A stretch of 64,000 nucleotides of DNA from Cupriavidus sp. YR651. GTDB taxonomy: Bacteria; Pseudomonadota; Gammaproteobacteria; Burkholderiales; Burkholderiaceae. Shown piece by piece: positions 4,623-56,774 of the stretch. Positions within the stretch are counted from its first letter, which is position 1, and each line of letters begins with the position of its first letter. Where the stretch lies: positions 186,001 to 250,000 of the forward strand of contig NZ_FMYZ01000005.1 of assembly GCF_900101625.1 (NCBI RefSeq). The letters run 5' to 3'. The translations under genes and the position numbers were made by a program. A model generated the notes under the pieces. The model worked only from the letters and a program-made list of their open reading frames with translations. It ran no database searches and had not been told where the DNA came from.

Positions 4623-5597
4623 ATGCAATTCACCACGCTGATCAAGACCCTGGCCGTCCCTGCTGCCCTGATGATGGCGGCAGGCCTGGCGTCGGCACAG
4701 AACTACCCGACGCGACCCGTCACCATCATCGTCCCGGCACCGGCCGGAGGCGGCATCGACCTGATCGCCCGCGTCGTCGGCGAAAAACTGTCGGTCAAGC
4801 TTGGGCAGCCCTTTATCGTCGAGAACCGTCCGGGTGCATCCAACAACCTGGGTACCGCAGTGCTGGCCAACGCCAAACCCGATGGCTACACCATCGGCAT
4901 CGTGGGCGGCAGCCACAACATCAATAAATTCCTCTTCAAGAACCTTGGCTGGGATCCGGAAAAGAGCTTCGAGCCGATCGTCTACACCCACGAAATCCCG
5001 CTGGTGTTTGCGATCTATCCGAAACTTCCGGTCAAGACGATGCCCGAACTCGTCAACTGGATGAAGGCCAATCCCGCCGAGGCCAAGGTTGCCACCTCCG
5101 GCCGCGGCAGCGCCCAGGAGATGGCTGCGGAAATGTTCCGCATGGTGAGCGGCGTGCCCATGCTGCTGATTCCCTACAAGGGCTCGTCCGCCGCCCAGCC
5201 CGACCTGGTGGCAGGCCGCACGGTGCTCTACATCGACACCATCAGCGCCATCCAGGAACAGGTCAAGGCCGGCAACGTCCGCGCCGTCGCGGTATCGAGC
5301 CGAAACCGATCCAAGACCTTGCCCAATGTCCCGACCGCCGAAGAACAAGGTCTCAAGGGCTATGACGCCAGCACCAATGGCGGCTTCCTGGCGCCTGCGG
5401 GCACGCCGAAAGACATCGCGGCCAAACTCAACACCGAGATCAATGCCGCGTTGAAGCTGCCCGAGGTACGCGCCAAGCTGGAGGCGGCCGGCATCGAGGT
5501 CCAGGGCGGCACTGCGCAAGCTTATGCGGCGCAGATCAAGTCAGATTTGGCGAAGTGGGGGAAGGTCGTCAAGGAAGCGGGAATCCAGCCGGAATAA
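4623..5597 (+). CDS. Bug/TctC-family periplasmic solute-binding protein
   Basis: Extracytoplasmic receptor of 324 residues with a clear Sec signal peptide ending ASA|QNYP. The typical Bug features are present: YPTRPVTIIVPAPAGGGID near the N-terminus, ENRPGAS, PDGYTIGI, and a C-terminal half with PTAEEQGL and APAGTPKDIA. Bug proteins bind carboxylates for tripartite tricarboxylate transport, but no tctA/tctB membrane genes are in the window. An AGGAGA ribosome-binding site precedes the start. Last gene of the operon from 2064; it converges on a TetR gene. Confidence 0.92.
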   Translation: MQFTTLIKTLAVPAALMMAAGLASAQNYPTRPVTIIVPAPAGGGIDLIARVVGEKLSVKLGQPFIVENRPGASNNLGTAVLANAKPDGYTIGIVGGSHNINKFLFKNLGWDPEKSFEPIVYTHEIPLVFAIYPKLPVKTMPELVNWMKANPAEAKVATSGRGSAQEMAAEMFRMVSGVPMLLIPYKGSSAAQPDLVAGRTVLYIDTISAIQEQVKAGNVRAVAVSSRNRSKTLPNVPTAEEQGLKGYDASTNGGFLAPAGTPKDIAAKLNTEINAALKLPEVRAKLEAAGIEVQGGTAQAYAAQIKSDLAKWGKVVKEAGIQPE

Positions 5598-10595: not shown

Positions 10596-11519
10596 TCAGG
10601 CGAGCCGTCCTCCGTGCACGGGCGCACCGCCCATCGGCATGTCGATGCACAGGATGGCGCCTGTGGTCGATTCGGTCATGAGCAGCGTCTTGCCGTCTTC
10701 GCCGCCGAAGCAGAGGTTGGTCAGCGATGCGCCCGTCGGACTGCGAATCACCTCCACAGGCTCGGCACGATGATTGAGAACCCAGACATAGCCGAGCCCG
10801 GGATTCGCCACCAGCAGATGCCCGTCGGAACGCATGGCGAGGCCATCGGGGCCGCTCGGCCCGTAGGACGTGAAGAACTGGCCGACCTTGCTCACCGAAC
10901 CATCCGCCTGCAATGGCACGCGCCAGACGCAATTGCCGCGTGTCATCGCGACAAACAGCACCTTTTCGTCCGGCGACAGCACCAATCCATTCGGGCTGGG
11001 GGCATTGGCCAGAAGGAGGTCGAGCTTGCCCCCCGGGCTCAGGCGATACACGCGACCGGCAGGATCATGCATGCCGGTCTGGCCCTGGTCGGTGAAATAG
11101 AGATTGCCCGCCGAATCGAACGTCAGATCGTTGACGCCACGGAACCGCTCCGAATTCCTGCGCTCGAGGAAAGGGCTCACGTTGCCCGTCCTGATATCCA
11201 GGCGAACCAGGCCGTTGCGATAGTCGGTGATCAGGAAGTCCCCGCCAGCCAGGCGCTTCATGCCATTCGGCTCGCCGTCATACTCCGCGACGAGTTCCCA
11301 GTCGCCCTGCATCGACACGCGAAACACGCGGCCATAGGGAATATCGGTCACCCAGAGATGATCCTCGGCCCACACCGGCCCTTCGAGGAACGAGTCGATG
11401 GTGGCCCCTCCGCGATTGGCGTGCGCCCACGCATTGTCCTTGTCGTGCCGACGGAATGAATCCGGAAGCGTTGTCAGCACCTTGGCGTCACGCACGACGG
11501 GTTGCTGGGCGAGAAACAT
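10596..11519 (-). CDS. SMP-30/gluconolactonase-family lactonase
   Basis: A 307-residue six-bladed beta-propeller enzyme hydrolysing sugar or other lactones with a divalent metal. All four metal ligands of the family can be placed: Glu in FLEGPVW, Asn in GVNDLTFD, Asn in SPNGLVLSPD and Asp in GPDGLAM. The start at 11519 was chosen because AGGAG sits just before it; an extension upstream overlaps the Bug stop region. Last gene of the IclR-linked operon (15216 to 10596). It contrasts with the degenerate SMP-30 domain fused to an IclR regulator at 45.4 kb. Confidence 0.88.
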   Translation of the reverse strand: MFLAQQPVVRDAKVLTTLPDSFRRHDKDNAWAHANRGGATIDSFLEGPVWAEDHLWVTDIPYGRVFRVSMQGDWELVAEYDGEPNGMKRLAGGDFLITDYRNGLVRLDIRTGNVSPFLERRNSERFRGVNDLTFDSAGNLYFTDQGQTGMHDPAGRVYRLSPGGKLDLLLANAPSPNGLVLSPDEKVLFVAMTRGNCVWRVPLQADGSVSKVGQFFTSYGPSGPDGLAMRSDGHLLVANPGLGYVWVLNHRAEPVEVIRSPTGASLTNLCFGGEDGKTLLMTESTTGAILCIDMPMGGAPVHGGRLA

Positions 11520-11533
11520 GGCTGGCTCCTGGC

Positions 11534-12505
11534 TTATTGCTTTTCGATCTGGGCCCGCTGCGCGACGGGAGCCCACTGCGCGGTTTCCCGCTGGATCAGT
11601 TGCGCAAACGCGGGGCTGTCCATATTGCCTGGCTGCGCGCCCATCGACGCCAGGAATGACTTCATGTCGGGGGCCAGGAGCGCCTTGTGAATCTCGGCTT
11701 GCAACCGGGTCACGACATCGGCTGGCGTGCCCTTCGGTGCGGCCAGGCCGGACCAGTTGAACAGGCTGAAGGCGGGGACGCCGGCTTCCGCAAAGGTCGG
11801 AACGTCCGGAAACACATCCACCCGGCTCTTTCCGCTGATGCCCAGCAGACGCATCTGCTTGCCTTTCACAGGCGCCAGCGCGGTCGGCGTCGACACAACC
11901 AGCAGGTCCACGCTGCCGGACAGCAGCCCGACCATGGCTTCGCCCGCGCCCTTGTACGGAACGTGCATCAGCTTGATGCCCGCTGCCTGCTGGAACGCCT
12001 CGGCGGCGAAATGCGGCGAACTGCCCGGGCCGCCGGTTCCAAATGTCACCTCTCCGGGATGTGCCTTGGCGTAGCTGACCAGCGAGGCGAGGTCCTTGAA
12101 ACGCGAATCGGCCTTGACGCCGAGCACGACCGGCGAGAACGCGAACGGCGCGATCGGCACCAGCGCCGTCTGATGATCCCAGTTCAGCTTCTTGAAGACA
12201 TAGGGCAGCGTCGTATAGGAATTGTCGTTCGCCAGCAGCGTGTAGCCGTCGGCCACCGCGTTGACGACCTGTGACGTCCCAATCGTGCCCGATGCTCCCG
12301 GCTTGTTCTCGACCACAAAACTCTGCCCGGTCTGCTCGGTCAGCTTCTGGGCGATCTTGCGGGTCACCACGTCAACGGCGCCGCCGGGAGGATTCGGCAC
12401 GACGATCCGCACCGGCTTGTCGGGGTAAGCCGCGGCGGCGGGTGCCATGCCGGTGCACAAGAGCGTCGCCATGATGGCGACGTAAGCAACTGTTCGGTGA
12501 ATCAT
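11534..12505 (-). CDS. Bug/TctC-family periplasmic solute-binding protein
   Basis: A 323-residue receptor with a signal peptide ending APAAAA|YPDKP, the Bug entry motif KPVRIVVPNPPGGAVDVV, ENKPGASG, and the late TFAEAGVPAFSL segment. It is the second Bug gene of the same operon (the other starts at 15216). Two receptors suggest two related substrates or paralogue turnover. No transport membrane genes lie nearby, so it must use TctAB encoded elsewhere or act as a sensor partner. Confidence 0.92.
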   Translation of the reverse strand: MIHRTVAYVAIMATLLCTGMAPAAAAYPDKPVRIVVPNPPGGAVDVVTRKIAQKLTEQTGQSFVVENKPGASGTIGTSQVVNAVADGYTLLANDNSYTTLPYVFKKLNWDHQTALVPIAPFAFSPVVLGVKADSRFKDLASLVSYAKAHPGEVTFGTGGPGSSPHFAAEAFQQAAGIKLMHVPYKGAGEAMVGLLSGSVDLLVVSTPTALAPVKGKQMRLLGISGKSRVDVFPDVPTFAEAGVPAFSLFNWSGLAAPKGTPADVVTRLQAEIHKALLAPDMKSFLASMGAQPGNMDSPAFAQLIQRETAQWAPVAQRAQIEKQ

Positions 12506-12589
12506 GATGTTGTCCCCTGGTGCCGCGGCAGACGCGTCTATCTTGCCGCGGCACGCTTGTTTTGACTATCGGAATGCGCCCTGCGGCAC

Positions 12590-14256: not shown

Positions 14257-15216
14257 TTATTTGGTGGAAGCGGTCTTCCACAGGCCTTCGAACTTGCCGC
14301 GCTGCGTGGCCATGTGCTGGCTCCACGCCGCGCCGGACAGATAGGAGATGCCGCGCGCCTCATTGACAGCGCGCGCCAGGAATTCGGGGTCCCTGGTCGT
14401 GGCTTCGATGGCGGCCTGCAGACGCTTGCTGACGTCCGGCGGCAAGCCGCGCGGCGCGGCGAAGCCACGTTCGGAAGAGATCACGATGTCGAGCTTCTGC
14501 TCGCGGGCGGTCGGCACATCGGCCACGCTTTGACGGCGCGCCTCGCCGAGCTGAGCCAGGATCTTCACGTCCTTCGACGCGCGATCGGCCTCGGTGTATT
14601 CGGTTGTGCTCATGGCCATCACGTCGATGTGATGACCGAGCAGGCTGGTCTTGGTCTGCGACGTGCCGGCGAACGGAATGTGGTTGACCTTGGCGCCCGT
14701 GGACTGCTGCAGCGCCAGCGCCGCCATGTGCCCGTTGGTGCCAATGCCGTTGCTGCCCATCGACAGGCCTTCAGGGTTGGCCTTGAGCTTCGCCACGAGG
14801 TCGGCCAGGGAAGCCAGCTTGCTGTCCCCCGCCACCACGAACATCGCGGGGTCATCGATCACGCGGGCCAGCGGAACGATCGCAGCGGGTTCGTACTTCG
14901 GCTTGCGCTGGATGGGAATGGTGAGGAACGACGGCGTGGAAATGATCCCGAGCGTGTAGCCATCCGCGGCGGCGCGCGATAGCCCCACATAGGCAATCTC
15001 GCCGGACGCGCCGGGCTTGTTCACCACGACGATGCGCGCCTTGCCGCCCAGGTGTTTTTGCAGGTACGGCGCCATCGCACGCGCCAGCAGGTCAGTACCA
15101 CCACCCGCCGCAAAGCCGACATAAACCTCGATGGGCCGGTCGTCCGGCCAGGCCGCATGGGCCGACATCGATGTGGCCGCGAAGGCCGCCAGAAGAAGGG
15201 ATCGCGTCGAACGCAT
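14257..15216 (-). CDS. Bug/TctC-family periplasmic solute-binding protein
   Basis: A 319-residue receptor with a signal peptide ending SAHA|AWPDD and the Bug motifs VYVGFAAGGGTDLLAR, NKPGASGEIAY and DGYTLGI. First gene of the five-gene operon. Its start codon lies 20 bases from the inner edge of an IclR-type palindrome, so its expression is very likely controlled by the divergent regulator. The entry motif differs from most Bugs (PIEVYVGF instead of PIRxVVPF), a minor oddity. Confidence 0.92.
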   Translation of the reverse strand: MRSTRSLLLAAFAATSMSAHAAWPDDRPIEVYVGFAAGGGTDLLARAMAPYLQKHLGGKARIVVVNKPGASGEIAYVGLSRAAADGYTLGIISTPSFLTIPIQRKPKYEPAAIVPLARVIDDPAMFVVAGDSKLASLADLVAKLKANPEGLSMGSNGIGTNGHMAALALQQSTGAKVNHIPFAGTSQTKTSLLGHHIDVMAMSTTEYTEADRASKDVKILAQLGEARRQSVADVPTAREQKLDIVISSERGFAAPRGLPPDVSKRLQAAIEATTRDPEFLARAVNEARGISYLSGAAWSQHMATQRGKFEGLWKTASTK

Positions 15217-15235
15217 TCGTTGTCTCCGTGTTGCG

Positions 15236-15260
15236 TTGTACTCTGTACAACATCGTTGTA
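15236..15260. promoter_or_regulatory. Two overlapping IclR-type operator palindromes
   Basis: TTGTAC-TCT-GTACAA (15236-15250) is a perfect 6+3+6 palindrome. It overlaps TACAAC-ATC-GTTGTA (15246-15260), also 6+3+6. They lie 20 bases upstream of the Bug start codon on the minus strand. The same layout is repeated in front of the IclR gene at 15336-15350. Confidence 0.7.
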
Positions 15261-15316
15261 TTTCCGTGAGACAAATATAATCCGTTCACGCTGCCATTCC
15301 ATTTATCGTTTACCCG

Positions 15317-26992: not shown

Positions 26993-27915
26993 AGATCGCG
27001 ACATACCTGCACGACGGCAGGCCCGGCGTCGGCGTCTTGACCGGGGACGACCGCCTGCTCCCGGTGGCCGACTGGATCCGCGAGACGCAGGTGACGCAAG
27101 CCGTCGCGCAACGCTGTGCCGCCGCTGGCATCGAACCTGCGGCCGGTGGCATGCTGCGGCTGCTGCAGGCTGGCCCCTCGGCGCTGGCCGCGCTGGCCCT
27201 GCATGTGGAAGCCATGCGCGAAACCGGCCACGCCAGAATGATTTCTCGCGATGCCGTGACGCTGCTGGCGCCGGTTCCGCGCCCCGGCAAGATCGTCGCC
27301 ATCGGGCGCAACTATGCCGACCATGCGAAGGAAACCGGCGTGGCGCCGTTCGAGAAGCCGCGCATCATCGCCAAGCTGCCCTCGAGCGTCGCGGCACCGG
27401 GCACGGCCATCCCCTGCCCGCCCGACGTGACCAAGCTCGATTTCGAAGCCGAGCTGGCCGTGGTCATCGGCGTGCACGCAAGGCATATCGAGGCGGATGA
27501 CGTCCCGGCGGTCATCGCCGGCTATACCGTACTCAACGACATGAGCGCGCGCGAGTTCCAGTTCGACGTGTCGCCGCCGCAGACCACGTTTGCCAAGAGC
27601 CACGATGGCTTTGCGCCGATGGGCCCATGGCTGGTCACGCGCGACGAGGTGCCCGATCCCCAGGCGCTCACGGTAGAAGCCTGGCTCAATGGCGAGCCGA
27701 TGCAGCATGGCCACACCTCGGACATGCTGTTTCCCGTCAACACGCTGATTGCCTACCTGTCGCGCTTCATGACGCTGGAACCGGGCGATGTGGTGGCCAC
27801 CGGTACGCCCGCCGGCAGCGGTGCCTTTCGCAATCCTCCACGCTACCTGCGCGCCGGCGACAAGCTGCGCCTGGAGGTTTCAGGCGTGGGCGTGCTGGAG
27901 CACGGCATCGCCTGA
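26989..27915 (+). CDS. Fumarylacetoacetate hydrolase-family enzyme
   Basis: A 308-residue FAH protein with an N-terminal cap of about 95 residues and the core motifs VAIGRNYADHAKE, FEAELAVVIG, NDMSAREFQ and GDVVATGTPAG. The ATG overlaps the TGA of the TfdA-like gene (ATGA), indicating coupling. Length and NDMSARE match hydrolases/isomerases acting on 2-oxo-hept-3-ene-dioate or acylpyruvates. It lies between the dioxygenase and a Bug receptor in one operon. Confidence 0.9.
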   Translation: MKIATYLHDGRPGVGVLTGDDRLLPVADWIRETQVTQAVAQRCAAAGIEPAAGGMLRLLQAGPSALAALALHVEAMRETGHARMISRDAVTLLAPVPRPGKIVAIGRNYADHAKETGVAPFEKPRIIAKLPSSVAAPGTAIPCPPDVTKLDFEAELAVVIGVHARHIEADDVPAVIAGYTVLNDMSAREFQFDVSPPQTTFAKSHDGFAPMGPWLVTRDEVPDPQALTVEAWLNGEPMQHGHTSDMLFPVNTLIAYLSRFMTLEPGDVVATGTPAGSGAFRNPPRYLRAGDKLRLEVSGVGVLEHGIA

Positions 27916-27926
27916 CACAGCGCATC

Positions 27927-27980
27927 AGCAGCAACAACAGCAAAAGCAGCAGCAACAACAGCAAAAGCAGCAGCAGCAAA
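27927..27980. repeat. CAG/CAA-rich imperfect tandem repeat
   Basis: AGCAGCAACAACAGCAAA is repeated with three extra bases (27945-27965) and a shortened third copy to 27980. The repeat lies in the 109-base gap between the FAH and Bug genes. Lacking guanine pairing partners, the RNA would be unstructured, C/A-rich, a possible Rho or ribosome loading spacer. Confidence 0.6.
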
Positions 27981-28024
27981 CCGGCGCACCAGACGCCGCA
28001 TGCACGACATCCAAGGAGACAACC

Positions 28025-29026
28025 ATGAAATGCCCCCCGCACATCGCCGCCTGGCAGCGAATGGCCGCCACGCTCGTCGCAGTCGGCGCACTGTTCGGCA
28101 CCGCGCCTGCTGGCGCCGCCGGCACCTATCCATCAAAGCCCATCCGCATGGTCGTGGGCTTCGCGGCCGGCGGCCCGACCGACGTCATTGCTCGCGTGCT
28201 GGCGCAGGACATGAGCGCCACACTCGGGCAATCGGTACTGGTCGATAACAAGACCGGCGCCAACTCGCTGATCGCCACCAAGGAAGTCAAGGCCGCCGAC
28301 GCCGACGGCTACACGGTGCTGTTCGCCTCGCTTTCGCACAACGTCAACGCGCTACTGATGAAGGAGCGCGCCGGCTACGACCCGCTCAAGGACTTCGTGC
28401 CCGTATCGAACGCGGCGATGCTGCCGCTGGTGGCGGTCACGGCGGCGAATTCGCCCTATCAGACGCTGCCCGAACTGATCAAGGCAGCCAAGACTGGCGA
28501 CGGCGTCGTGAGTTTCGGTTCGGCCGGAAACGGCGGCTCGGGACACCTGGCCGCTGAACTGCTGGGGACGACGGCGAAAGTGCATATGACCCACGTGCCG
28601 TTCCGTGGCAATGGTCCCGCGCTGACCGAAGTGATGGCCGGCCGCGTATCGTTCACGTTCTACCCGATCATCGGCATCGCCGATTACGTGAACCAGAAGC
28701 GCCTGCGCGTACTGGCCGTCGGCACCGCCAAACGGCTGCCCGAGTTTCCCGATGCGCCGACGATGGCCGAATCCGGCTTTCCCGGTTTCGAGGAAACGGC
28801 ACCGTGGGTGGGACTGCTCGCGCCGGCCGGCACGCCCAGGGAGGCCGTCGACAAACTCCATGATGCGATGGTCAAGGCACTGGCCAAGCCCGCGGTGAAG
28901 GAGCGCCTGCGCAGCCTGGGCGCGATCCCGGTTGGCGACACGCCGGCCCAGTTCGCTGCCTACCTGAAACAGGATCAGCAGCGGTGGCAGCGTGTGATCC
29001 AGTCGGCCGGCATCAAGGCAGAGTGA
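28025..29026 (+). CDS. Bug/TctC-family periplasmic solute-binding protein
   Basis: A 333-residue receptor. Signal peptide ends APAGAAG, followed by the Bug motif YPSKPIRMVVGFAAGGPTDV, then NKTGANSLIA and DGYTVLFASL. Start placed at 28025 behind AAGGAG; a longer frame through the CAG repeat gives a polyglutamine head that is unlikely. It is in the operon with dioxygenase, FAH hydrolase and oxidase, so it probably binds the acid that this pathway degrades. Confidence 0.92.
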   Translation: MKCPPHIAAWQRMAATLVAVGALFGTAPAGAAGTYPSKPIRMVVGFAAGGPTDVIARVLAQDMSATLGQSVLVDNKTGANSLIATKEVKAADADGYTVLFASLSHNVNALLMKERAGYDPLKDFVPVSNAAMLPLVAVTAANSPYQTLPELIKAAKTGDGVVSFGSAGNGGSGHLAAELLGTTAKVHMTHVPFRGNGPALTEVMAGRVSFTFYPIIGIADYVNQKRLRVLAVGTAKRLPEFPDAPTMAESGFPGFEETAPWVGLLAPAGTPREAVDKLHDAMVKALAKPAVKERLRSLGAIPVGDTPAQFAAYLKQDQQRWQRVIQSAGIKAE

Positions 29027-42948: not shown

Positions 42949-44274
42949 ATGGCCAGGGCGCGATACAAATCGATCGTGGATCGGATAGCCGCACGCATCC
43001 GCGCGGGCGAACTACTGCCGGGCGCGCAGCTGCCCACAGTTCGCGCGCTGATGCGGGAGCATCGCGTCGCGCTGGCCACGGCCTTGCGGGTATATGGCGA
43101 ACTCGAGGCGGTCGGGCTGGTGGTCTGCGAACCCGGCCGTGGCACCTTCGTACGCGATACCTCGCTACCGCGCGGGCTCGGGCTGGAGCAGCACCCGCTC
43201 AAGGCCGGCGCGGTGGACCTGACGTTCAATTACCCTTCGCTGCCGGACCAGGCGGAATTGCTGCGTGAAGGCCTGCGCAGCCTGGCCGTGTCGGGCGATC
43301 TCGATGCGCTGCTGCATTCGGCGCCCCAGGGCGGCCGACTGCACGAGCGGCAGACCGTGGCGAGGCATTTGCGGAACCGGGATATCCGCGTCGGCGGCGA
43401 CCAGGTACTGATCGTCAACGGCGCCCAGCAAGGATTGGCCGTGACGGTCATGGCCCTGCTCAAGCCTGGCGACGTACTGGCTGTCGACGCCCTCACCTAT
43501 CCCGGCATGAAGGCGCTGGCGCACGCGCATCGGCTGGATCTCGAGCCGCTCCCCCAGTCCGCCCGCGGCACTGACCTTGATGCCCTGGCCGCGCTCTGCA
43601 AGCGGCGGCCCGTGCGGGCCATCTATACGATGCCCACGCTGCACAATCCGCTGGGAACGGTCATGCCGGAGCCGGATCGCGCCCGCCTGGCGGCGCTTGC
43701 CGATGCGCACGATTTCCTGATCATCGAGGATGGCGCCTATGCCTTCCTGGCCGAGCCGTCGCCGAAACCCGTCTTTACCCATGCCCCGCATCGGACCATC
43801 TACGTGTCGGGCCTTTCAAAGAGCGTGGCGTCCGGCTTGCGGTTTGGATTCGTCGCGGCACCCCACGCCCATATTCCCGCCCTCGAACAGGCCATTCGCA
43901 TATCCACCTGGAACACCCCTTCGCTGACCGTCGCCCTGGCCTGCCGCTGGATCGAAGCGGGTACGGTGGATGCCCTGGAGGACCGCAAGCGCAAGGACGC
44001 CAGGCAGCGCCAGGACCTTGCCCGCCAGGTCTTGCAAGGCTGCACGGTCATTGCCCACCCTTGCTCCTATTACCTTTGGCTGGAACTCGGAGAAGGCTTG
44101 CGCGCCGACCGTGTCGTAGCCGAACTTGAACGCAAGGGGGTACTGGTGACGACCGCGGAGCCATTTGCCGCAGCGCCTTACGTCCCTCACGCATTGCGGG
44201 TGGCGCTGGGATCGATTGGGCTGGGAACACTGCAGCGGGCGCTTTGCGAAATCCGGGCCGTGGTCAGGCAGTGA
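42949..44274 (+). CDS. MocR-type PLP-dependent GntR-family regulator
   Basis: A 441-residue regulator. Residues 1-65 form a GntR winged helix (YKSIVDRIAARIRAGELLPGA; LPTVRALMREH). The rest is a fold-type I aminotransferase domain with the PLP lysine in GLSKSVASGLRFG and the conserved YTMPTLHNPLG segment. It is divergent from the LysE exporter gene, its likely target. Many MocR proteins activate exporters or biosynthesis in response to amino acids that react with PLP. Confidence 0.92.
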   Translation: MARARYKSIVDRIAARIRAGELLPGAQLPTVRALMREHRVALATALRVYGELEAVGLVVCEPGRGTFVRDTSLPRGLGLEQHPLKAGAVDLTFNYPSLPDQAELLREGLRSLAVSGDLDALLHSAPQGGRLHERQTVARHLRNRDIRVGGDQVLIVNGAQQGLAVTVMALLKPGDVLAVDALTYPGMKALAHAHRLDLEPLPQSARGTDLDALAALCKRRPVRAIYTMPTLHNPLGTVMPEPDRARLAALADAHDFLIIEDGAYAFLAEPSPKPVFTHAPHRTIYVSGLSKSVASGLRFGFVAAPHAHIPALEQAIRISTWNTPSLTVALACRWIEAGTVDALEDRKRKDARQRQDLARQVLQGCTVIAHPCSYYLWLELGEGLRADRVVAELERKGVLVTTAEPFAAAPYVPHALRVALGSIGLGTLQRALCEIRAVVRQ

Positions 44275-45439: not shown

Positions 45440-47044
45440 TCAAGGCGATGAGAACGCCAGCTCGAAGAGGCATCCTGACGACACTGCCTTGCCAAGTACG
45501 TCGAGTGGGACCTGCTGCCTCGATGACGTGATGAACAAGCGATCGCCGTTCTCACCGCCAACGCAGACATCAGACGGGCAAGGTACGGGCATGCCGACGA
45601 CACGGTCGAGCGTTCCATCGGGCAGGAAGCGCATCACGGACCAACCCTCGCAGAGCGCGGTCCAGATCCCGCCACCCGCGTCCAGGGCCAGGCCGTGCGG
45701 CTTGCCGGCTCCCTTCGGCACCGTTGCCAGCCGCCGTATGGACTGACTCTCGGGCTCCAGTACGAGGATGGATCCAGATTCAGGCGTGGTGGCATACAGG
45801 CGCCCTTCCTCCGCCGACCATTGCAGCGCCTGCACAGGCTCGGCAATGGTCCACTGCGGTTGCCACGCACCGCCACGGCGATACGAACCGACGATACAGC
45901 TCCCGGAGGAAGCCGCCACCGCCGCCCACAGGACGCCGCTCTCCCCCTCGCATAGCGCCATGGCTTCCCGTACTGTGGCCGGCCATCCTTCGACAGGACT
46001 GACGGTGCCGTCGGGGGCGACGCTGACTACCCCGCCATCGTGCAATACCAGTACATTGCTGCCATCTGGCAAGAGCGCGCGGATCGGTGTCTCTATCCGC
46101 GCAAGCACGCGATCCTGCGAAGTGCCGTCCGGCGCCACGTCCAGGCAACGCACCGCTGGCGCCAGCACATCCGCCCAAAGCAGCCGGCGGGTGGCGGCAT
46201 CCCAGAATGGATAGCCGCCCTGGAATGCCCACGGGCCCGCTACGGGTTGCACCGCAGTGTCATGGATCGCTGGCTTGAGCGCCCCCATTTCCGCACCGAT
46301 GCGCCGGGCGGCCTGGGCGATCTCCGGACCGAGCAGTTCCAGCCTTTCACGGGTCAGGCGGTATGCCGGGCCCGCCACGCTGATCGCGCCGCGCACCGCG
46401 CCCTGCGGATCGACGATGGGCGCGCCCACGCAACGCACACCCAGCACGATCTCCTCGTCGTCGATGGCATAGCCGCGTGCCGCCGTGATGTTCAGCTCGG
46501 CATTGAGACGGCGGCGATCGGTAATCGTGAGGGGCGTCAGTGGCTTCAGCGTGAGATCGCGCACGATGGCGTCTCGCGCAGGACCGGCCATCGCCGAGAG
46601 AATGGCCTTGCCCTGGCTGGTGCAATGCAGTGGCTTGCGTTCCCCCAACGCGGCAGCGGATCGCTCGCTGTGCGCGCCATCGCAGCGTTCAAGCGATATC
46701 ACTTCGAGCCCATCGAGGGTGGCCAGGTAGCACGTTTCGCCGGTCAGGTCGCGCAGGCCACGCATCTCGTTGGCGGCGGCGGCCACGAGATCGGGCATCG
46801 TATAGGCCTGCCGGGACATCTCGAAGCAGCGGAAGCCCAGCCGGTAGACCTTGCGCGCCGGATCACGCCGCAGCATGCCGCGCGCCACCAGCGTTGCCAG
46901 CAATCGGTAGATGGTCGTTCGGGGCAGCGCCAGTTGCGTGCTCAGGTCGGTCTGGCTCAGGCCATCGGGGGCAGCCCCCACTGCTTCGAGCACGTCGATC
47001 GCCTTTTCGATTGCGCCGGTGCCGTCACCAGGATTCGCGGACAT
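45440..47044 (-). CDS. IclR-family regulator fused to SMP-30/gluconolactonase-like domain
   Basis: A 534-residue fusion. Residues about 8-65: winged helix (LSQTDLSTQLALPRTTIYRLL). About 75-255: IclR effector domain (GYAIDDEEIVLGVRCVGAP). About 270-530: SMP-30 beta-propeller, with blades such as LLWADVLAPAVRCLD and MRFLPDGTLDRV. The four metal ligands expected for a lactonase are not at their places: QGGYPFW (Glu to Gln), PVQALQWS (Asn to Gln), KPHGLALD (Asp to His), and no ND motif. So the domain may bind rather than hydrolyse a lactone. Starts at 47080 or 47044 are possible. Divergent from the RraA operon. Confidence 0.85.
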   Translation of the reverse strand: MSANPGDGTGAIEKAIDVLEAVGAAPDGLSQTDLSTQLALPRTTIYRLLATLVARGMLRRDPARKVYRLGFRCFEMSRQAYTMPDLVAAAANEMRGLRDLTGETCYLATLDGLEVISLERCDGAHSERSAAALGERKPLHCTSQGKAILSAMAGPARDAIVRDLTLKPLTPLTITDRRRLNAELNITAARGYAIDDEEIVLGVRCVGAPIVDPQGAVRGAISVAGPAYRLTRERLELLGPEIAQAARRIGAEMGALKPAIHDTAVQPVAGPWAFQGGYPFWDAATRRLLWADVLAPAVRCLDVAPDGTSQDRVLARIETPIRALLPDGSNVLVLHDGGVVSVAPDGTVSPVEGWPATVREAMALCEGESGVLWAAVAASSGSCIVGSYRRGGAWQPQWTIAEPVQALQWSAEEGRLYATTPESGSILVLEPESQSIRRLATVPKGAGKPHGLALDAGGGIWTALCEGWSVMRFLPDGTLDRVVGMPVPCPSDVCVGGENGDRLFITSSRQQVPLDVLGKAVSSGCLFELAFSSP

Positions 47045-47186
47045 ATCGGTTTGTCTCAGTATCTGGAAATCAGCGGCCATTTCCCGATGGGAGACGGCCT
47101 GGCAGTCATTCTAAAACCGCGGAAAGCTGACTAGGATGTGAGCGAGGCAACGGCGTGACGCAGCAACTGGCGCCCGCCAACGCGAT

Positions 47187-47201
47187 TCCCAGTATATGGG
47201 A
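47187..47201. promoter_or_regulatory. Candidate IclR operator upstream of the RraA gene
   Basis: TCCCA-GTATA-TGGGA is a 5+5+5 dyad 43 bases before the RraA start. It lies in the 199-base gap between the divergent IclR/SMP-30 fusion and the RraA operon. Arms differ from those at 15236, so the two IclR proteins probably read different sites. Confidence 0.5.
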
Positions 47202-47243
47202 CAAAACGGTGAATTCCCTCCCTTCCTTCCGACGAGTCCGAGC

Positions 47244-48053
47244 ATGCGTATCACCACTCCGCCCCCGCTAACCAACATTCCGCAACGCGCTCCCGCGCCC
47301 CATGTGCCCGACTCCGTACTGGATCGCCTGGCCAGGGTCACCAGCGGGTCCCTGACTACCCAGCTCTACATCAAGGGCTTCCGGCAACCGGTGCTTCACG
47401 GCCTGACGCCGCTGAACACGAAGATCAAGCCCTTTGCGGGCCGCGCCTACACCATGCGCTTCATACCGGCGCGCGAGGACATCGACGTGTACGGCAACCT
47501 GACCACCGAGCCGTCGGCGGACAATCTGCAGTGGGTGGGCGTCGAGCAGATCGAGCCGGGCCATGTGCTCGTGATCGACAGCAACCGCGACGGCCGTGCC
47601 GCGTCGATGGGCAACATGCTCATCACACGGATGATGATGCGCGGTGCGCGTGGCGTGATCACGGATGGATCGTTCCGCGACGGCACCGAGTTGTCACAGA
47701 TGGATTTCCCGATCTGGTGCACTGGCGTGACCGCCACCACGCGCCTGTCCTACCACCACGTGGCCGATCTCCAGGTGCCGATCGGCTGTGCCGGCGTGGC
47801 GATCTATCCCGGCGACGTCATCCATGGCGATGGCGACAACATCACCGTGGTGCCCGCCCACCTCGCCGAGGAAATGGCCGATCTGTGCGAACGCCGCGAT
47901 GACATCGAAGCCTACCTGGCCCTGCGCGTGCAGGCTGGTGAAGCACTGTGGGGCCTCTACCCGCCCAGCGAAACCACGCGTGCCGAGCATCGCGAGTGGG
48001 TGGCAGCCGGCCGCCCGCCCATCCCCCCGGCAGTTCCCGCCGCCAGCCGATGA
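47244..48053 (+). CDS. RraA-family protein, probable oxo-acid aldolase/decarboxylase
   Basis: A 269-residue RraA-family protein. The metal region reads GHVLVIDSNRDGRAASMGNM, then MMRGARGVITDGSFRD, with the catalytic Arg-Asp of active aldolases (SFRDG). It is longer than RNase-E inhibitor RraA (about 160), with extra N- and C-terminal stretches, like other Burkholderiales sugar-acid paralogues. It heads an operon with an NTF2-like protein, an aldehyde dehydrogenase and a Dabb protein. Probably cleaves a hydroxy-oxo diacid; substrate unknown. Confidence 0.85.
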   Translation: MRITTPPPLTNIPQRAPAPHVPDSVLDRLARVTSGSLTTQLYIKGFRQPVLHGLTPLNTKIKPFAGRAYTMRFIPAREDIDVYGNLTTEPSADNLQWVGVEQIEPGHVLVIDSNRDGRAASMGNMLITRMMMRGARGVITDGSFRDGTELSQMDFPIWCTGVTATTRLSYHHVADLQVPIGCAGVAIYPGDVIHGDGDNITVVPAHLAEEMADLCERRDDIEAYLALRVQAGEALWGLYPPSETTRAEHREWVAAGRPPIPPAVPAASR

Positions 48054-48069
48054 CCCCACGGACACTCAC

Positions 48070-48531
48070 ATGCCCCCAGTCAACGAGACCTTCACCCCCG
48101 AGTACTACGAAGCACTGATCCGCCGCTACTTCGACGCCTGCAACGCGGCCGACTACCAGGCACTGGTGGATTGCTTCACGCCCGACGCCGTGCACTACTT
48201 CCCGGCCGGCCTGCCCGAAGTGCCCTGGCGCTCCGCCGATACGATTGCCAGGAAATGGGTCTGGTGCGTCGACACGCTGGGTTCGCAATGGACCATCGAG
48301 CGGATCCTGATCAGCCACAACCGCCCCGAGGCGATGATCGAATGGACGCACTGGAAGAACAAGAGCGGCACCGCGCTGCGCGGCGCGGAATGGTATGACT
48401 TCGATCCGGCAACGGGCAAGATCAAGGAAATCCGCGCCTACTACGCTTCGCCCGCGGACAAGACAGCGCCCATCAATGAACTGGTGGACTTCGATTACGC
48501 CGCGCGCGGCTATCACCTCAAGAGCGAGTAG
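48070..48531 (+). CDS. NTF2-like/SnoaL-family protein
   Basis: A 153-residue NTF2-like protein: ALIRRYFDACNAADYQALVD helix, CFTPDAVHYFPAG, then the WTIERILISHNRPEAMIEWTH strands. The pocket motif FDPATGKIKEIRAYYASP is typical of SnoaL/ketosteroid-isomerase-like enzymes. In operon between the RraA-like and aldehyde dehydrogenase genes, 16 bases after the former. It may isomerise or dehydrate a pathway intermediate. Confidence 0.82.
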   Translation: MPPVNETFTPEYYEALIRRYFDACNAADYQALVDCFTPDAVHYFPAGLPEVPWRSADTIARKWVWCVDTLGSQWTIERILISHNRPEAMIEWTHWKNKSGTALRGAEWYDFDPATGKIKEIRAYYASPADKTAPINELVDFDYAARGYHLKSE

Positions 48532-48549
48532 TCGCGAGTGCCACAGACC

Positions 48550-50037
48550 ATGACCTTGCAATCCATCGATGCCCGCACGGGACAACCCGTGGGGGAAGCG
48601 TGGCCGGAATCGACACCGGCACAAATCGACGCGGCCGTTACGGCCGCTGCCACCACGGCACCCGCGTGGGCAACCAGCGATGGCGCCGCCCGCGCCCGCC
48701 TGCTGCGCGGCCTGGCGGATGCCCTTGAATCCGCGCGCGAACACCTTGTGCCCCTGGCCGACCGCGAAACGGCATTGGGCCTGCCGCGCCTGAACGGCGA
48801 ACTCGATCGCACCGCGTTCCAGCTACGCGGATTTGCCGACGTCGCCGAACGTGGCGACGCATTTGCCTTTCTGGACGACCCAACCGTGGCCGGTGCACCG
48901 CCGGCAGGCCGGCCTCACCTCACGCGCGTGCGCGTACCGTTGGGCCCCGTGGCCATGTTTGCGGCCAGCAACTTCCCGTTCGCGTTCTCGGTGCTCGGCG
49001 GTGACACCGCATCGGCGCTCGCCGCCGGTTGCCCGGTCGTGATCAAGGGCCACCCGGCGCATCCCGAGTTATCCCGGCAGACCGTGGCGCTCGCGCGGCA
49101 GGTCATTGCATCACAGGGACTGCCCTCCGGCCTGATCGGCTTCGTGGAAGGCACGTCGATCGCAGCCGGCGTTCGACTGGTGCAAGCCGATGGCATCGCG
49201 GCGGTGGCGTTCACCGGCTCCTTCGCCGGCGGCACCGCACTGGCGAGGATCGCCGCGGAGCGCGCGCGGCCCATTCCCTTCTTCGGTGAACTCGGCTCCG
49301 TCAATCCGCTGATCGTGCTGCCCGATGCATTGCGCGAAGGCGGCACCGAGCTCGCGCAATCGCTGGCCGGTTCGATCTGCCTGGGCAGCGGCCAGTTCTG
49401 CACCAGTCCTGGCGTGATCGTGGTCACGAAGGGCGCGGCAGGCGATGCGTTCGTTGACGCGCTCGCCACGCACCTGGCCAGCCTGTCTCCACACGCGTTG
49501 CTGACGCCAGGCATTCGTGGCGCCTTCGAAAAGGGCCTCGTGCGTTGGCGCGATGCGGCCGGCGTTCGGCCGCTGGTGGCCGATATCGCCGAGGCCAATG
49601 CGACGCCGCGTCCGTATCTGGCCGAAGTCGATGGCGGCGACTTCGTGGCTAACGCCTCATTGCATGAGGAAGTGTTCGGCGCCGCAGCGCTCGTGGTGCG
49701 CACCGACACGCCGTCGCAGGCGATCGACATACTGCGTGCGGTGGGCGGATCGCTGACGGTGACGCTGTGGGGCATCGAGAAGAGCGCAACGTCGCCTGAC
49801 GACACGACGCTCGAGCTGGTGCGCGCCGCCACGCAAATTGCCGGGCGCGTGCTGTTTGCCGGCGTACCCACTGGCGTAGCCGTCACGGCCGCCCAACACC
49901 ATGGCGGGCCGTTTCCAGCCTCCACCGCACCCGCCACGACCTCTGTAGGCTACGCCGCGCTCGATCGCTTCCTGCGCCCGGTCGCGCTGCAGGACGCACC
50001 GGCCTGGCTGGTCGACCGCAAGGGGGTGCCATGCTGA
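48550..50037 (+). CDS. NADP-dependent aldehyde dehydrogenase, ketoglutarate-semialdehyde type
   Basis: A 495-residue dehydrogenase of the KGSADH branch. Catalytic residues: Glu in FFGELGSVNP and Cys in GSGQFCTSPG. The GPVAMFAASNFPFAFSVLGG and GCPVVIKGHPAHPE segments are diagnostic of alpha-ketoglutaric semialdehyde and related dehydrogenases of sugar-acid pathways. A GTG at 48538 is an alternative start. It overlaps the next gene by seven bases. In the operon it would oxidise the aldehyde released by the RraA-like aldolase. Confidence 0.9.
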   Translation: MTLQSIDARTGQPVGEAWPESTPAQIDAAVTAAATTAPAWATSDGAARARLLRGLADALESAREHLVPLADRETALGLPRLNGELDRTAFQLRGFADVAERGDAFAFLDDPTVAGAPPAGRPHLTRVRVPLGPVAMFAASNFPFAFSVLGGDTASALAAGCPVVIKGHPAHPELSRQTVALARQVIASQGLPSGLIGFVEGTSIAAGVRLVQADGIAAVAFTGSFAGGTALARIAAERARPIPFFGELGSVNPLIVLPDALREGGTELAQSLAGSICLGSGQFCTSPGVIVVTKGAAGDAFVDALATHLASLSPHALLTPGIRGAFEKGLVRWRDAAGVRPLVADIAEANATPRPYLAEVDGGDFVANASLHEEVFGAAALVVRTDTPSQAIDILRAVGGSLTVTLWGIEKSATSPDDTTLELVRAATQIAGRVLFAGVPTGVAVTAAQHHGGPFPASTAPATTSVGYAALDRFLRPVALQDAPAWLVDRKGVPC

Positions 50038-50324
50038 GACATGTCGTGTTGTTTCGACGCAAGCCCGACGTGGCGCAGGACGCTGCGCTGGAATCCGCAT
50101 TGGCTGCGCGCATGTTGGCGCTCGGCGCCAGGATTCCGGCCATTACGTCCTGGCGCTTCGCGAAGAACGAAATGGACCGGCCAATCTGCTGGGACTACGT
50201 GCTGGAATCCGAAGTCGCCGATGCACAGGCACTTGATGACTATCTGTTTCATCCGCTGCACCAGGCATTGGTGGCGGACCTGAAGCCGTACTTCGAATGG
50301 GCGGCGGCGGATTACACCGTGTGA
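50031..50324 (+). CDS. Dabb (stress-responsive A/B barrel) domain protein
   Basis: A 97-residue dimeric ferredoxin-like fold protein: LRHVVLFRRKPDVAQDA, then ITSWRFAKNEM, DYVLESEVADAQALDDYL and HPLHQALVADLKPYFE, a clear Dabb pattern. Such proteins are often small cyclases or decarboxylases/monooxygenase partners. Its start overlaps the aldehyde dehydrogenase end by seven bases. Last gene of the operon; a terminator follows. Confidence 0.82.
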   Translation: MLRHVVLFRRKPDVAQDAALESALAARMLALGARIPAITSWRFAKNEMDRPICWDYVLESEVADAQALDDYLFHPLHQALVADLKPYFEWAAADYTV

Positions 50325-53589: not shown

Positions 53590-55686
53590 TCAACTCCCCT
53601 TGAGTTCCACCACGGCATCGACCGCCATGACGCCTTTGCCGGCCGCCATCACCATCAGCGGATTGATGTCGACCGATGCCAGCGCAGTTCGATGACGCAA
53701 TGCCCAATCGCCGAGCGCGACCGCCGACGACGCCAGCGCCTCCAGGTCGAGCGCCGGGATGTCGCGATAGCCGTCGAACAGCGGTGCCAGGCGCAGCCGC
53801 GCGCAGGCTGCCTTGACGTCTTGCGCCGTGAACGGCGCGAGCAGTGTCACGACGTCCTTGCGGAGTTCGAGCAGCGTGCCTCCCTCCCCGATCATGACCA
53901 GCGGCCCGAACACCGGATCGACCGAGACGCCCAGCGCAAACTCATGCTGGCCCTTGACCATCGCCGCCACGACCACCCGTGGCAATGCCACGCCCAACCG
54001 CTGCAGTGTGTCGAGGCAGGCCCGCGTCGCGCGGGCCACGCTCGCGGCATCGGTGAGTCGAAGGTGCACGAGGCCATGCTCGCTCTTGTGCGGGACCTCC
54101 GCCGCGCAACCCTTGACCACCACCGGCACCCCGCCGAGCGCGTCGAACGCCATCACTGCCGCATCCACGCTGTCGCATAGCCGGTGCGGCACGGTCGGTA
54201 CGCCGGCTTCCGCGAGCAAGGCCAGGCTATGGACTTCATCCTGCAGGCCGCTGCCGTCGAGCTGCTGGGCGTCGGGGCAGACCGGCGCCGTCGCCGGTGC
54301 CGCCTCGGCCAGCCGATGATGCGCGGCGTATTGCGCCAGCGCGGCAATGGCATCGGCTTCAGTGACGAATGCGGGCACGCCGTGTCGCACAAAGACCTCG
54401 CGGACCGACTGTTGCGGCGCGCTGGTCACCAACGGCTTGGCCTGGCTCGCGCTGAAGGCGGCGGCGTCGCGCGCCAGTGCCTCGACGTCGTAGCCGGGAC
54501 CTGCCACCGGAATGCCGACCATCACCATGTCGGCCTGCGGATCGGCGCCCAGCGCCTGGAGCACGCGCGGAAACATGTCGCCCTTGCCCAGCAGCGCCGC
54601 GGTCATGTCGAGCGGATTGCTGGCCGTGCCGAACTCGGGCAGGATCGCGCCCAGTTCGCGCAGCGTTGCGGGCTGAAGTTCGGTCAGCGGCAGATCGTGC
54701 CGTTCGGCCAGGTCGGCCGCCATCACACCTACCGCGCCGCTATGGCTCATCACGACCGTGCGGCCCTGCCCCGGGGCGCGCTGCTGCAAATACAGCGGCA
54801 CCGCGCGGACCAGTTCGCCGATGTCGCGCGCACGCCAGATGCCGTGACGGGCCAGGAACGCATCGATCGCGGCGTCGTTGCCGACCAGCGCACCGGTATG
54901 CGAGGCAGCCGCCTTTGCACCCCGCTGGCTGTTGCCGGCCTTGATCGCCACGATGCTCGCGCCACGCGCTCGGGCCACCTCCGCCGCGCGGGCGAGCTGG
55001 GCAGGGTCGGACACCGATTCGAGGTAGACCAGGATCAGCCGCACCTCAGGGTCCGCCGCCACGGCCGCGATCATCGCGCAGGCGTCGAGATCGGCGTCGT
55101 TGCCGGTCGCTACCAGGTAGCGCACGCCGTAGCCGGCCTGGCGCAGCAACGCATAGGGCATGACGCTCGCCGCGCCGCTCTGGCTGATGATCGCGATCGG
55201 GCCGTCCTGGGGTGCCACCTCCATGAACATGGTCGAGAAATTGAGCACCGCTCCGCTGGCAAAGTTGGCCGTGCCTTGCGCGTTCGGCCCCACCAGCCGC
55301 ATGCCGCTGTCTTTGGCCGCCGCCACCAGTTCCTGCTGCCGCTGGCGTCCCGCATCGCCCGTTTCGGCGAAACCGGATGCCATGATGACGGCCGCCTTGA
55401 CGCCGGCGGCGCCGCACTGACGCACCTGTTCAAGCGTGGCATCGCCGGACACGGCAATCACCACGGCGTCCGGCGCCTTGCCGATCGCACCGAGATCGGG
55501 GTACGCACGATAGCCCTGGATGACCTCGCGCCCCGGGTTGACCGGAAACACCTCGCCCGTGTACCCGAAGGTGCGCATGTAGTGGATCGGCCGTCCGCCT
55601 ACCTTGTTGGGGTTGTCCGAGGCGCCGATCACGGCCACCGAGGCCGGCGAGAACAGGGCGTGGAAGGTTGCAGTGGTCTCAGTCAA
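53590..55686 (-). CDS. ADP-forming acyl-CoA synthetase (acetate-CoA ligase family)
   Basis: A 698-residue fused alpha-beta NDP-forming CoA ligase. The N-terminal CoA-binding domain shows SPASVAVIGASDNPNKVGGR; the phosphorylated catalytic histidine sits in AASHTGALVGND; the C-terminal ATP-grasp half has VVVKGCAAEVPHKSEHGLV and a INPLMVMAAGKG end. Start taken at TTG 55686 with GGGAG before it, overlapping the Bug gene by eight bases; no ATG is well placed. This layout matches FerA-type feruloyl-CoA synthetases as well as pimeloyl/acetyl ligases. Context favours an aromatic or phenylpropanoid acid. Confidence 0.88.
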   Translation of the reverse strand: MTETTATFHALFSPASVAVIGASDNPNKVGGRPIHYMRTFGYTGEVFPVNPGREVIQGYRAYPDLGAIGKAPDAVVIAVSGDATLEQVRQCGAAGVKAAVIMASGFAETGDAGRQRQQELVAAAKDSGMRLVGPNAQGTANFASGAVLNFSTMFMEVAPQDGPIAIISQSGAASVMPYALLRQAGYGVRYLVATGNDADLDACAMIAAVAADPEVRLILVYLESVSDPAQLARAAEVARARGASIVAIKAGNSQRGAKAAASHTGALVGNDAAIDAFLARHGIWRARDIGELVRAVPLYLQQRAPGQGRTVVMSHSGAVGVMAADLAERHDLPLTELQPATLRELGAILPEFGTASNPLDMTAALLGKGDMFPRVLQALGADPQADMVMVGIPVAGPGYDVEALARDAAAFSASQAKPLVTSAPQQSVREVFVRHGVPAFVTEADAIAALAQYAAHHRLAEAAPATAPVCPDAQQLDGSGLQDEVHSLALLAEAGVPTVPHRLCDSVDAAVMAFDALGGVPVVVKGCAAEVPHKSEHGLVHLRLTDAASVARATRACLDTLQRLGVALPRVVVAAMVKGQHEFALGVSVDPVFGPLVMIGEGGTLLELRKDVVTLLAPFTAQDVKAACARLRLAPLFDGYRDIPALDLEALASSAVALGDWALRHRTALASVDINPLMVMAAGKGVMAVDAVVELKGS

Positions 55687-56683
55687 GGCTCGCTCCCGAT
55701 GCCTTGACCACCGGCGACCACTTGCCCGCGTCATGCTGGATCAGCCTGGAGAAGTCGGCGGGCGTACCCGGCAGCGGCCGGGCACCCAGCGCGGCAAGCT
55801 GTTTCTGCACGTCTGCCAGCGCGAGCACGGCCTGCAGTTCGCTGTTCAGGCGGCGGATCACGTCTGGCGTGGTTCCTTTCGGTGCCGACAGGCCGAACCA
55901 GATCGTCACGTCGAAGCCCGGCAGGCCGGCCTCGGCAATCGTCGGCACCTTGGGCAGCGCTTCCGAACGGGTCGCGCCGGTCACGCCTAGCGCCTTGACC
56001 TTGCCCGCGTTGATGTACTGCCCCTGGCTCGACACCGTGTCGAACATCATCGAGATGCGTCCGCCAAGCAGATCCGTGAACGCCGCGGCCGAGCCCTTGT
56101 ACGGCACATGGACGATATCAATGCCGGCCATCGACTTGAACAGTTCGCCGGACAGATGGTTGGAGCTCCCGTTGCCAGCCGAACCGAACGTCAGCGTGCC
56201 CGGCTTCTGCTTTGCCAGCGCGATCAGTTCCCTGATGTTGCCGACCGGCAGGTTGTTCGGCACGACCAGCACGTTGACCGTGGAGGCCACCGAGCCTACG
56301 GCATCGAACGACTTGAGGGGGTCCACCTTCAGCGAGCGGTAGAGCCACGGGTTGATCGCCATGGTGCCGGTGGTGGAGAAGAAGAGCGTATAGCCGTCGG
56401 GTGCCGCCTGCGCGGCGGCTTCGGTGGCGATGGTGCCGCCAGCGCCGCCGCGGTTATCGACCAGCACCGGCTGTCCAAGCTGCTGCGACAATTGCTGGCC
56501 GATCAGTCGCGCCATCGCGTCAGTGGGCCCGCCGGCCGGAAACGGCACGACCAGGCGGATCGGTTTGGCGGGATAGCCGGTCGAGGCGGCAGCGGCGGCA
56601 CTGAAGGCGGCCGGGGTGGCAGCAACCAGCAAGGCGCATAACGGTCGCCGGAATGCGCGAAGCACAGCGGAAAGGCACGGCAT
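55679..56683 (-). CDS. Bug/TctC-family periplasmic solute-binding protein
   Basis: A 334-residue receptor with a long signal peptide (AFSAAAAAS) and the Bug motif YPAKPIRLVVPFPAGGPTDA, VDNRGGAGG and DGYTLFFSTT. First gene of the CoA-ligase operon and divergent from a LysR regulator. It likely binds the acid substrate of the ligase. The GTG-start LysR lies 127 bases away across a region with GATATC repeats. Confidence 0.92.
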   Translation of the reverse strand: MPCLSAVLRAFRRPLCALLVAATPAAFSAAAAASTGYPAKPIRLVVPFPAGGPTDAMARLIGQQLSQQLGQPVLVDNRGGAGGTIATEAAAQAAPDGYTLFFSTTGTMAINPWLYRSLKVDPLKSFDAVGSVASTVNVLVVPNNLPVGNIRELIALAKQKPGTLTFGSAGNGSSNHLSGELFKSMAGIDIVHVPYKGSAAAFTDLLGGRISMMFDTVSSQGQYINAGKVKALGVTGATRSEALPKVPTIAEAGLPGFDVTIWFGLSAPKGTTPDVIRRLNSELQAVLALADVQKQLAALGARPLPGTPADFSRLIQHDAGKWSPVVKASGASLD

Positions 56684-56774
56684 GTTGTCTCCAGATGTTG
56701 CGTAGGCCCTCTCTACAGGGAGGGATGCCCTCAGTGTATGGAGTCCCTAGCCAACTCAAAAGAGTAGAATCATC

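Follow-up and report, generated by a model that had tools for sequence, protein, structure and literature searches.

Introduction

In the MocR and ROK regulators an enzyme fold, that of an aminotransferase and of a sugar kinase, respectively, is reused as the sensor of a DNA-binding protein. Here we describe a gene that joins a regulator of the IclR family to a six-bladed propeller of the SMP-30 type, and that lies in a window of 64 kb (the whole stretch of DNA analysed). If we are right in reading the propeller as a sensor, then this protein would work in the manner of MocR and ROK; it differs from them in that the enzyme fold has been added to a regulator which already possesses an effector domain, and in that catalytically complete fused relatives exist.

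On the regulator side, the described systems to compare are IclR, KdgR, PcaR and AllR, in which, as in the fusion, the helix-turn-helix (HTH) and effector domains are full length and the gene layout is divergent; the fusion, however, carries an extra C-terminal SMP-30 propeller of 270 residues. On the enzyme side, the SMP-30/regucalcin gluconolactonases and the Caulobacter xylonolactonase (7plb/7plc) have the same six-bladed propeller, but in the group of fusions to which the window's protein belongs (class B, below) the metal and catalytic residues are replaced, and the propeller is fused to a DNA-binding regulator. The part of the SMP30 study available to us gives Glu18, Asn154 and Asp204 as the ligands of a metal that is needed for activity, Asn103 as a fourth ligand in related enzymes, and Arg101 and Asn103 as substrate contacts (PMC3551927).

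Among the open-access papers that our searches listed, none describes an IclR-SMP-30 fusion. The architecture itself is already in the databases, since plasmid copies are annotated there as 'IclR family transcriptional regulator C-terminal domain-containing protein' or as 'SMP-30/gluconolactonase/LRE family protein'.

Results

One frame holds a full IclR regulator and a complete propeller

The features of the locus are collected in Table 1. Pfam places HTH_IclR (PF09339; E 2e-15, 56.7 bits against a cut-off of 22), IclR_C (PF01614; E 4.9e-39, above its cut-off) and, at residues 279-508, SGL (PF08450; E 1.1e-22, 81.2 bits against a cut-off of 26.3) on the single translated frame, for which an in-frame ATG further upstream, at 47080, offers an alternative of 546 aa. 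By Pfam the protein has the N-terminal winged HTH and the C-terminal effector domain of the IclR family, and in Foldseek the IclR half resembles structures 1mkm, 8ejv and 1tf1. Because this half keeps an effector domain of its own, two inputs to the protein are possible.

Table 1. Coordinates in the window of the fusion gene, its parts, the predicted operators and the divergent genes.
Feature	Position	Strand	Details and basis
IclR-SMP-30 fusion gene	45440..47044	-	534 aa from ATG 47044; ORF and translation, Pfam, AlphaFold2, Foldseek
IclR part: winged HTH (residues 11-62) and effector domain (85-249)	46280..47044	-	Pfam; PDB sequence match 1mkm, E 1.9e-28
SMP-30 propeller without catalytic residues	45443..46261	-	alignment of 117 domains, conservation
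Predicted operator 1	47186..47202	+	dyad, 1 mismatch to GTNCCA-N5-TGGNAC
Possible operator 2	47053..47069	+	2 mismatches; shortly before the fusion's start codon; would serve autoregulation
RraA-like aldolase-family gene	47196..48053	+	PF03737, E 2e-29; NF006093 above cut-off; divergent from the fusion
SnoaL/NTF2-like small protein gene	48070..48531	+	PF12680, E 5.6e-13
Aldehyde dehydrogenase gene	48538..50037	+	PF00171, E 1.3e-44
Dabb-domain protein gene	50031..50324	+	ORF; PF07876, E 8.1e-16; overlaps the aldehyde dehydrogenase stop

The AlphaFold2 model, built on an alignment of 52 sequences, has a mean pLDDT of 91.7 and lays out the strands of six blades C-terminal to the IclR part, so that a six-bladed propeller accompanies the SGL signature. 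Foldseek finds this propeller to resemble human SMP30 (3g4e, E 1.1e-17), and among the 50 matches listed the TMt values to SMP30, xylonolactonase, luciferin-regenerating enzyme and 2ghs are 0.72-0.79. The model is a monomer with a pTM of 0.60, and it therefore does not fix the mutual placement of the two halves. Nine NCBIfam models match the protein, none of them at its cut-off. The sequence-only reading, which saw in this frame a full IclR regulator and a complete SMP-30 propeller, is borne out by reading frame, domain profiles, model and structural matches alike.

The metal site of the window's propeller is lost

When 117 SGL domains are aligned, the window's propeller shows Gly277 at the position of Glu18, Val358 at Arg101, Met362 at Asn103, Gln405 at Asn154 and His450 at Asp204. 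None of the four SMP-30 metal ligands is thus retained. Gln405 and His450 had been named before as the replacements of Asn154 and Asp204, and both stand; the accompanying proposals of a Gln in place of Glu18 and of an absent Asn103 do not. For the Glu18 column, the ungapped match of A-F-x-G-[x]-x-P-x-W to A-x-L-G-[E]-x-P-x-W places Gly277, with Gln275 two residues earlier. The Asn103 column falls on Met362, in a stretch where the local alignment is less certain, the window's protein having two extra residues. A stand-alone lactonase at 10.6 kb keeps all four ligands in the alignment (Glu, Asn, Asn, Asp), as the sequence-only reading had said. That protein (window 10596-11576) has Gly at the Arg101 position.

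A metal site shifted elsewhere in the fold was considered as well. At the channel positions where the six inner strands start (Gly277, Arg322, Met362, Gln405, His450 and Ser491), which are the positions covered, there is no Glu, Asn or Asp, so a displaced set of ligands, which would have spoken against the earlier reading, was not found there. The propeller has the SMP-30 fold but, judged from its residues, is not to be filed as a lactonase.

Fusions with and without an active site

A genome scan, with one genome per species and a class B propeller as seed, returned 78 loci. Both domains lie in one frame in 67 of these (58 of class B, 5 of class A, 3 of class C, and L088); the others are two loci with an in-frame stop (L020 and L021), one that runs off a contig end (L063), two fragments (L068 and L082) and six free SMP-30 proteins. 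Seven plasmid copies, moreover, are annotated as one protein. A frameshift that joined two genes through sequencing or assembly error, raised earlier as a possible artefact, is refuted by the recurrence of the same single frame in independent genomes, and we give it negligible weight. The stops of L020 (2862-2864) and L021 (7082-7084), both from metagenome assemblies, fall between the IclR and SMP-30 parts.

The rows that we compare are the 67 scan loci, the seven plasmid copies, the window and, by hand, L020 and L063. Before counting we removed duplicates of the window and of L014/L015 (L001, L092, L005 and L006), the propeller of L021, whose frame is broken by the in-frame stop, and the fragments L068 and L082; L088 and the three class C rows are excluded from the class B counts. 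L020 (stop between the domains), L063 (contig end) and L066 (missed by the coordinate rule) were put into class B by hand.

Class A comprises 8 rows, a number that is under-sampled because the seed was of class B only, and all six catalytic columns, Glu-Arg-Asn-Asp-Asn-Asp, are intact in every one of them. Loss of the metal ligands, which was to be checked across all fusions, is therefore not general, and the sequence-only reading had missed class A. Class B, in which the catalytic set is lost, comprises 65 rows including the window, related loci not being independent: 43 are mainly betaproteobacterial (the 'beta set', with some gammaproteobacteria, L028, L033, L037 and L042, among them), and 22 mainly alphaproteobacterial (the 'alpha set'). 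Class C has 3 rows with the pattern Lys-Arg-Asn-x-Ser-Asp, and in L088 the catalytic set is partly lost. The class C rows (L081, L083 and L084, from Sinirhodobacter, Pseudochelatococcus and Paracoccus) have Lys at Glu18 and Ser at Asn154 and keep Arg101, Asn103 and Asp204, a pattern that suggests either an intermediate or a different active site.

Class A occurs on plasmids of Sinorhizobium medicae, Agrobacterium and Chelatococcus, and in Cognatishimia, Roseomonas/Falsiroseomonas and a betaproteobacterial MAG; its three plasmid copies are annotated solely as SMP-30 proteins. A class A model has a mean pLDDT of 86.6 and a pTM of 0.62. From its intact residues, class A may be a regulator that hydrolyses its own signal. 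The loci are L011:4098-5849, L012:4140-5849, L013:4167-5849, L069, L074-L076 and L079, the last counted as class A although the start of its IclR part is missing, which keeps it outside the IclR tree.

The fusion is widespread but rare. Three of 60 Cupriavidus genomes carry it (the window's own, L014 from C. gilardii J11, and L015), and the 30 loci fetched from a sample of 250 genomes of the order include no fusion but that of the window. When the S. medicae class A protein was compared with 200 genomes of the phylum, at most six candidates per genome being scored, no two-domain match at E<=1e-28 appeared besides the window's own. We call the fusion rare because these order and phylum samples gave no further one among what was scored or fetched.

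Across class B the catalytic residues have been replaced in no uniform manner. Mean conservation of the catalytic columns is 0.99 in 44 intact domains against 0.44 in class B. None of the 65 class B rows keeps Asn154 and none keeps Asp204; Glu18 persists in 3 of them and Asn103 in 2. The Asp204 column holds Ser in 33 of 43 beta-set rows, and even the 13 class B loci whose neighbours resemble those of the window differ at position 450, which may be Ser, Gly, His, Cys or Ala.

Could such a propeller still be an enzyme with altered chemistry, through another metal site or metal-free hydrolysis? Its predicted fold is intact and under purifying selection, and polar residues are frequent at the class B inner strands (Gln or Asp at 405, Ser or His at 450), which would suit this idea. 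However, with Asn154 and Asp204 gone throughout, Arg101 and Asn103 degenerate, and no one set of replacements common to the class, we consider it improbable; SMP30 itself, according to the same partial source, is active only with a metal held by Glu18, Asn154 and Asp204 (PMC3551927).

A likely single origin

Both halves of the protein group class B together. In the SGL tree, built without the catalytic columns, class B forms one clade (66 rows, SH-aLRT 87) and the 36 free intact lactonases another (96*); the very long P0002 falls on the fused side. In the IclR tree class B is again one clade (65 rows, support 98*), classes A and C and L088 group beside it (85), and a branch with an unstarred support of 91 separates all 76 fused domains from 30 free rows (26 distinct). 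The trees were made by a quick method, the sample of free IclR proteins is small, and the program warned of long branches that meet. That class A is a separately arisen fusion is not supported by this tree.

Compared with the window's protein, class A fusions thus have the same domain order and a neighbouring place in the IclR tree, and share with it five residues of the propeller's entrance face (below), but they differ in their complete active site and in their gene neighbours. The trees are compatible with a single fusion to a complete enzyme, followed by one catalytic loss at the base of class B; this is the simplest history, and has moderate support, 'one loss' referring to class B only, as class C and L088 have partial losses of their own. 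A single origin of the fusion is likely.

The propeller is retained under purifying selection

In class B, 15 of 20 pairs have dS below 0.7 in both halves, and in these the dN/dS of the propeller is 0.08-0.27 and that of the IclR half 0.03-0.22; in all 20 pairs the propeller stays below 0.4. The pairs among the window, L014 and L015 give propeller values of 0.17, 0.33 and 0.38; their dS is close to 1 or higher. Three class A pairs give 0.13, 0.15 and 0.22. In 19 of the 20 class B pairs (the exception being L051-L053) the propeller exceeds the IclR half in dN/dS, by 1.3-5 fold; for the three pairs of class A the corresponding factor is 1.1-1.5. Because this excess is larger, we regard the constraint on the class B propeller as real but looser than that in class A.

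These values bear on the possibility that the propeller is a decaying, functionless remnant. The looser constraint relative to the IclR half would fit decay, as would the in-frame stop between the domains in the two metagenome-assembled copies. Against it stand the low dN/dS in every class B pair, the single open frame in most scanned loci, and a conservation that is specific to one face of the propeller, so that we rate a remnant as very improbable. By its substitution pattern, the dead propeller is under purifying selection, and is not decaying. Alignment, trees and dN/dS therefore agree with the lactonase ancestry proposed earlier: a former lactonase domain inside a regulator has lost its catalytic set and has been retained. 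As the predicted fold is kept under selection while the catalytic residues are lost, the propeller has this mark of a pseudoenzyme sensor domain.

A conserved entrance face and new residues beside the old site

We assigned the loops of the cavity-entrance face from the strands of the model, and checked them against the entrance residues named in the available part of the SMP30 study (PMC3551927). Mean conservation in class B is 0.60 for the entrance loops against 0.43 for those of the opposite face, a difference of +0.17; in the beta set (42 rows here, L055 missing) it is 0.68 against 0.45 (+0.23). None of 20000 permutations reaches the class B difference, and none of 20000 the beta-set difference. 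In the 44 intact domains, of which 36 are free and 8 belong to class A, the order is reversed, with 0.47 at the entrance and 0.55 opposite (-0.08).

Class A alone, however, does not follow the free enzymes: its entrance and opposite-face values are 0.775 and 0.699 (+0.075), while free lactonases drawn at random in 100 sets of 8 average -0.069 (sd 0.020, maximum -0.017). In addition, five residues of the entrance face, Leu294, Pro296, Trp468, Arg509 and Ala520, occur in every one of the 8 class A rows and in 61-65 of the 65 class B rows. The part of the entrance face common to classes A and B may therefore be a domain-docking surface and not a sensor pocket.

These observations give substance to the main rival of the sensor reading, in which the dead propeller has no ligand of its own and serves for docking or oligomerisation: it would be a scaffold that contacts, through its entrance face, either the IclR effector domain or an adjacent subunit, and the sensing would be left to the IclR domain. 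Class A shares both the entrance-over-opposite trend and the five conserved residues in spite of its intact active site, and class B is variable at the positions that once held the metal, which would be unexpected if all its members sensed one compound. Conversely, a whole six-bladed propeller is a large scaffold, the monomer model does not fix the arrangement of the domains, and three residues near the former Arg101 and Asn154 in sequence are absent from all 44 intact domains, class A included. Trp398, present in 59 of 65 class B rows, lies 7 residues N-terminal to the lost Asn154 column, and Glu402, in 42 of 43 beta-set rows, lies 3 residues N-terminal to it; Trp354, in 40 of 43 beta-set rows, lies 4 residues N-terminal to the lost Arg101 column. 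Neither Glu402 nor Trp354 occurs in the 22 rows of the alpha set. The appearance of new Trp and Glu residues beside the old site favours a new cavity, and we hold the scaffold to be somewhat unlikely.

Sugar-acid type neighbours

Divergent from the fusion lies the putative operon of RraA-like, SnoaL, aldehyde dehydrogenase and Dabb genes listed in Table 1. The RraA-like gene more likely starts at ATG 47244, since 47196 falls within predicted operator 1. The counterparts of the aldehyde dehydrogenase at L008 and L009 are annotated 'aldehyde dehydrogenase (NADP(+))'.

In 62 class B fusion loci other than the window, an RraA gene is found in 37 (on the opposite strand in 35), SnoaL/NTF2 in 36, aldehyde dehydrogenase in 31, Dabb in 24, an aldose-epimerase-like gene in 16, an enolase-superfamily gene in 15, and a uronate-dehydrogenase-like gene in 15, the last in two distant subclades; these counts are lower bounds (flanks of at most 7 kb) and depend on score thresholds. 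At the thresholds used, none of these seven kinds of neighbour appears at the 8 class A and 4 other loci, where weaker enolase-type matches occur. The class A plasmid copies lie with runs of sugar ABC-transporter genes, with SDR genes and with dehydrogenases of the epimerase family.

Compared with PDB sequences, the uronate-dehydrogenase-like protein encoded at L008 matches the uronate dehydrogenases 6mfh (E 1.3e-33) and 3rft (E 1.2e-32), its top match being 3ay3, named an NAD-dependent epimerase/dehydratase. In the oxidative hexuronate pathway, as outlined in the part of PMC6353982 available to us, uronate dehydrogenase makes an aldarolactone, which in one variant is opened by the lactonases UxuL and UxuF. 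The gene content thus supports the statement that many class B loci sit with genes of sugar-acid type. A uronate-dehydrogenase link to the window's own operon was rejected, the gene being absent there. The window's genome has one uronate-dehydrogenase-like match at E<=1e-15, on another contig and with 33% identity to that of L008. This gene (contig C28:274053-275638, in L177) adjoins an intact SMP-30 gene that is the genome's strongest SMP-30 match.

A predicted operator between the divergent genes

Between the two divergent genes lies operator 1, the only site in the 64-kb window with at most one mismatch to the dyad. Operator 2 is weak taken alone, as the window holds many sites with two mismatches. 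Among class B genes, counted with the window and with L020, L021 and L063 left out, the predicted dyad lies upstream, at no more than one mismatch, of 35 of 42 in the beta set and of 6 of 21 in the alpha set; the figures are 1 of 8 for class A and 0 of 4 for the others. The pattern was read off some of the loci on which it was counted, and mononucleotide-shuffled controls contain it in 0.4-1.0% of cases (0.75% for the beta set). It resembles the consensus GKTYCRYW3-4RYGRAMC given for IclR group 1 in the part of PMC8222616 available to us. A whole-genome search for perfect dyads found 7 against 7 in the control, which is chance level, and we claim no extra regulon members. Two of the perfect dyads share the fusion's contig, at a distance of 25-27 kb, and are not tied to promoters.

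Discussion

The reading that we prefer, to which we give slightly better than an even chance, is that of an autoregulated IclR regulator of the divergent RraA-SnoaL-aldehyde dehydrogenase-Dabb operon, with the pseudo-lactonase C-terminus as a second, metal-free input. It would descend from a fusion of an IclR regulator in which the SMP-30 lactonase was still complete, a condition that class A has preserved. The founding lineage of class B would then have lost the metal site together with the catalytic residues, and retained the fold as a second input domain. The metal-free cavity would then bind an intermediate of a sugar-acid pathway, such as an aldonolactone, an aldarolactone or an acid; the ligand state of the propeller would be transmitted to the IclR part; and the regulator would act on itself and on the divergent operon through the GTNCCA-N5-TGGNAC dyad. 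Such a protein might also read lactone and free acid separately, as the sequence-only reading had proposed. Regulation of that operon, binding of a ligand by the propeller, the identity of that ligand and its coupling to DNA binding are all steps that we infer.

One may go further, and derive a two-input family from a self-resetting one. Class A would both regulate and hydrolyse a lactone that signals flux, while in class B the disarmed propeller would read the lactone and the IclR domain would read another metabolite. We think this extension rather unlikely; if it were true, living relatives would carry one and the same fused protein both as an enzyme and as a dead sensor.

Catalytically complete and degenerate forms of one regulator-enzyme fusion do occur in living bacteria, with the loss of catalysis presumably lying between them. 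Since classes A and B both exist, the step from enzyme to sensor is directly testable by comparison. For this group of regulators an operator and a target operon can now be proposed, together with a few candidate ligands.

Two further observations concern the window at large. A MocR-type regulator (GntR plus an aminotransferase domain) is encoded at 42949-44274, its best NCBIfam match being EhuR with 349 bits against a cut-off of 480. Five frames, at 4611-5594, 11537-12565 (the query itself), 14260-15285, 27773-29023 and 55682-56746, match one substrate-binding-protein query, and we take them to be putatively of the tripartite tricarboxylate type.
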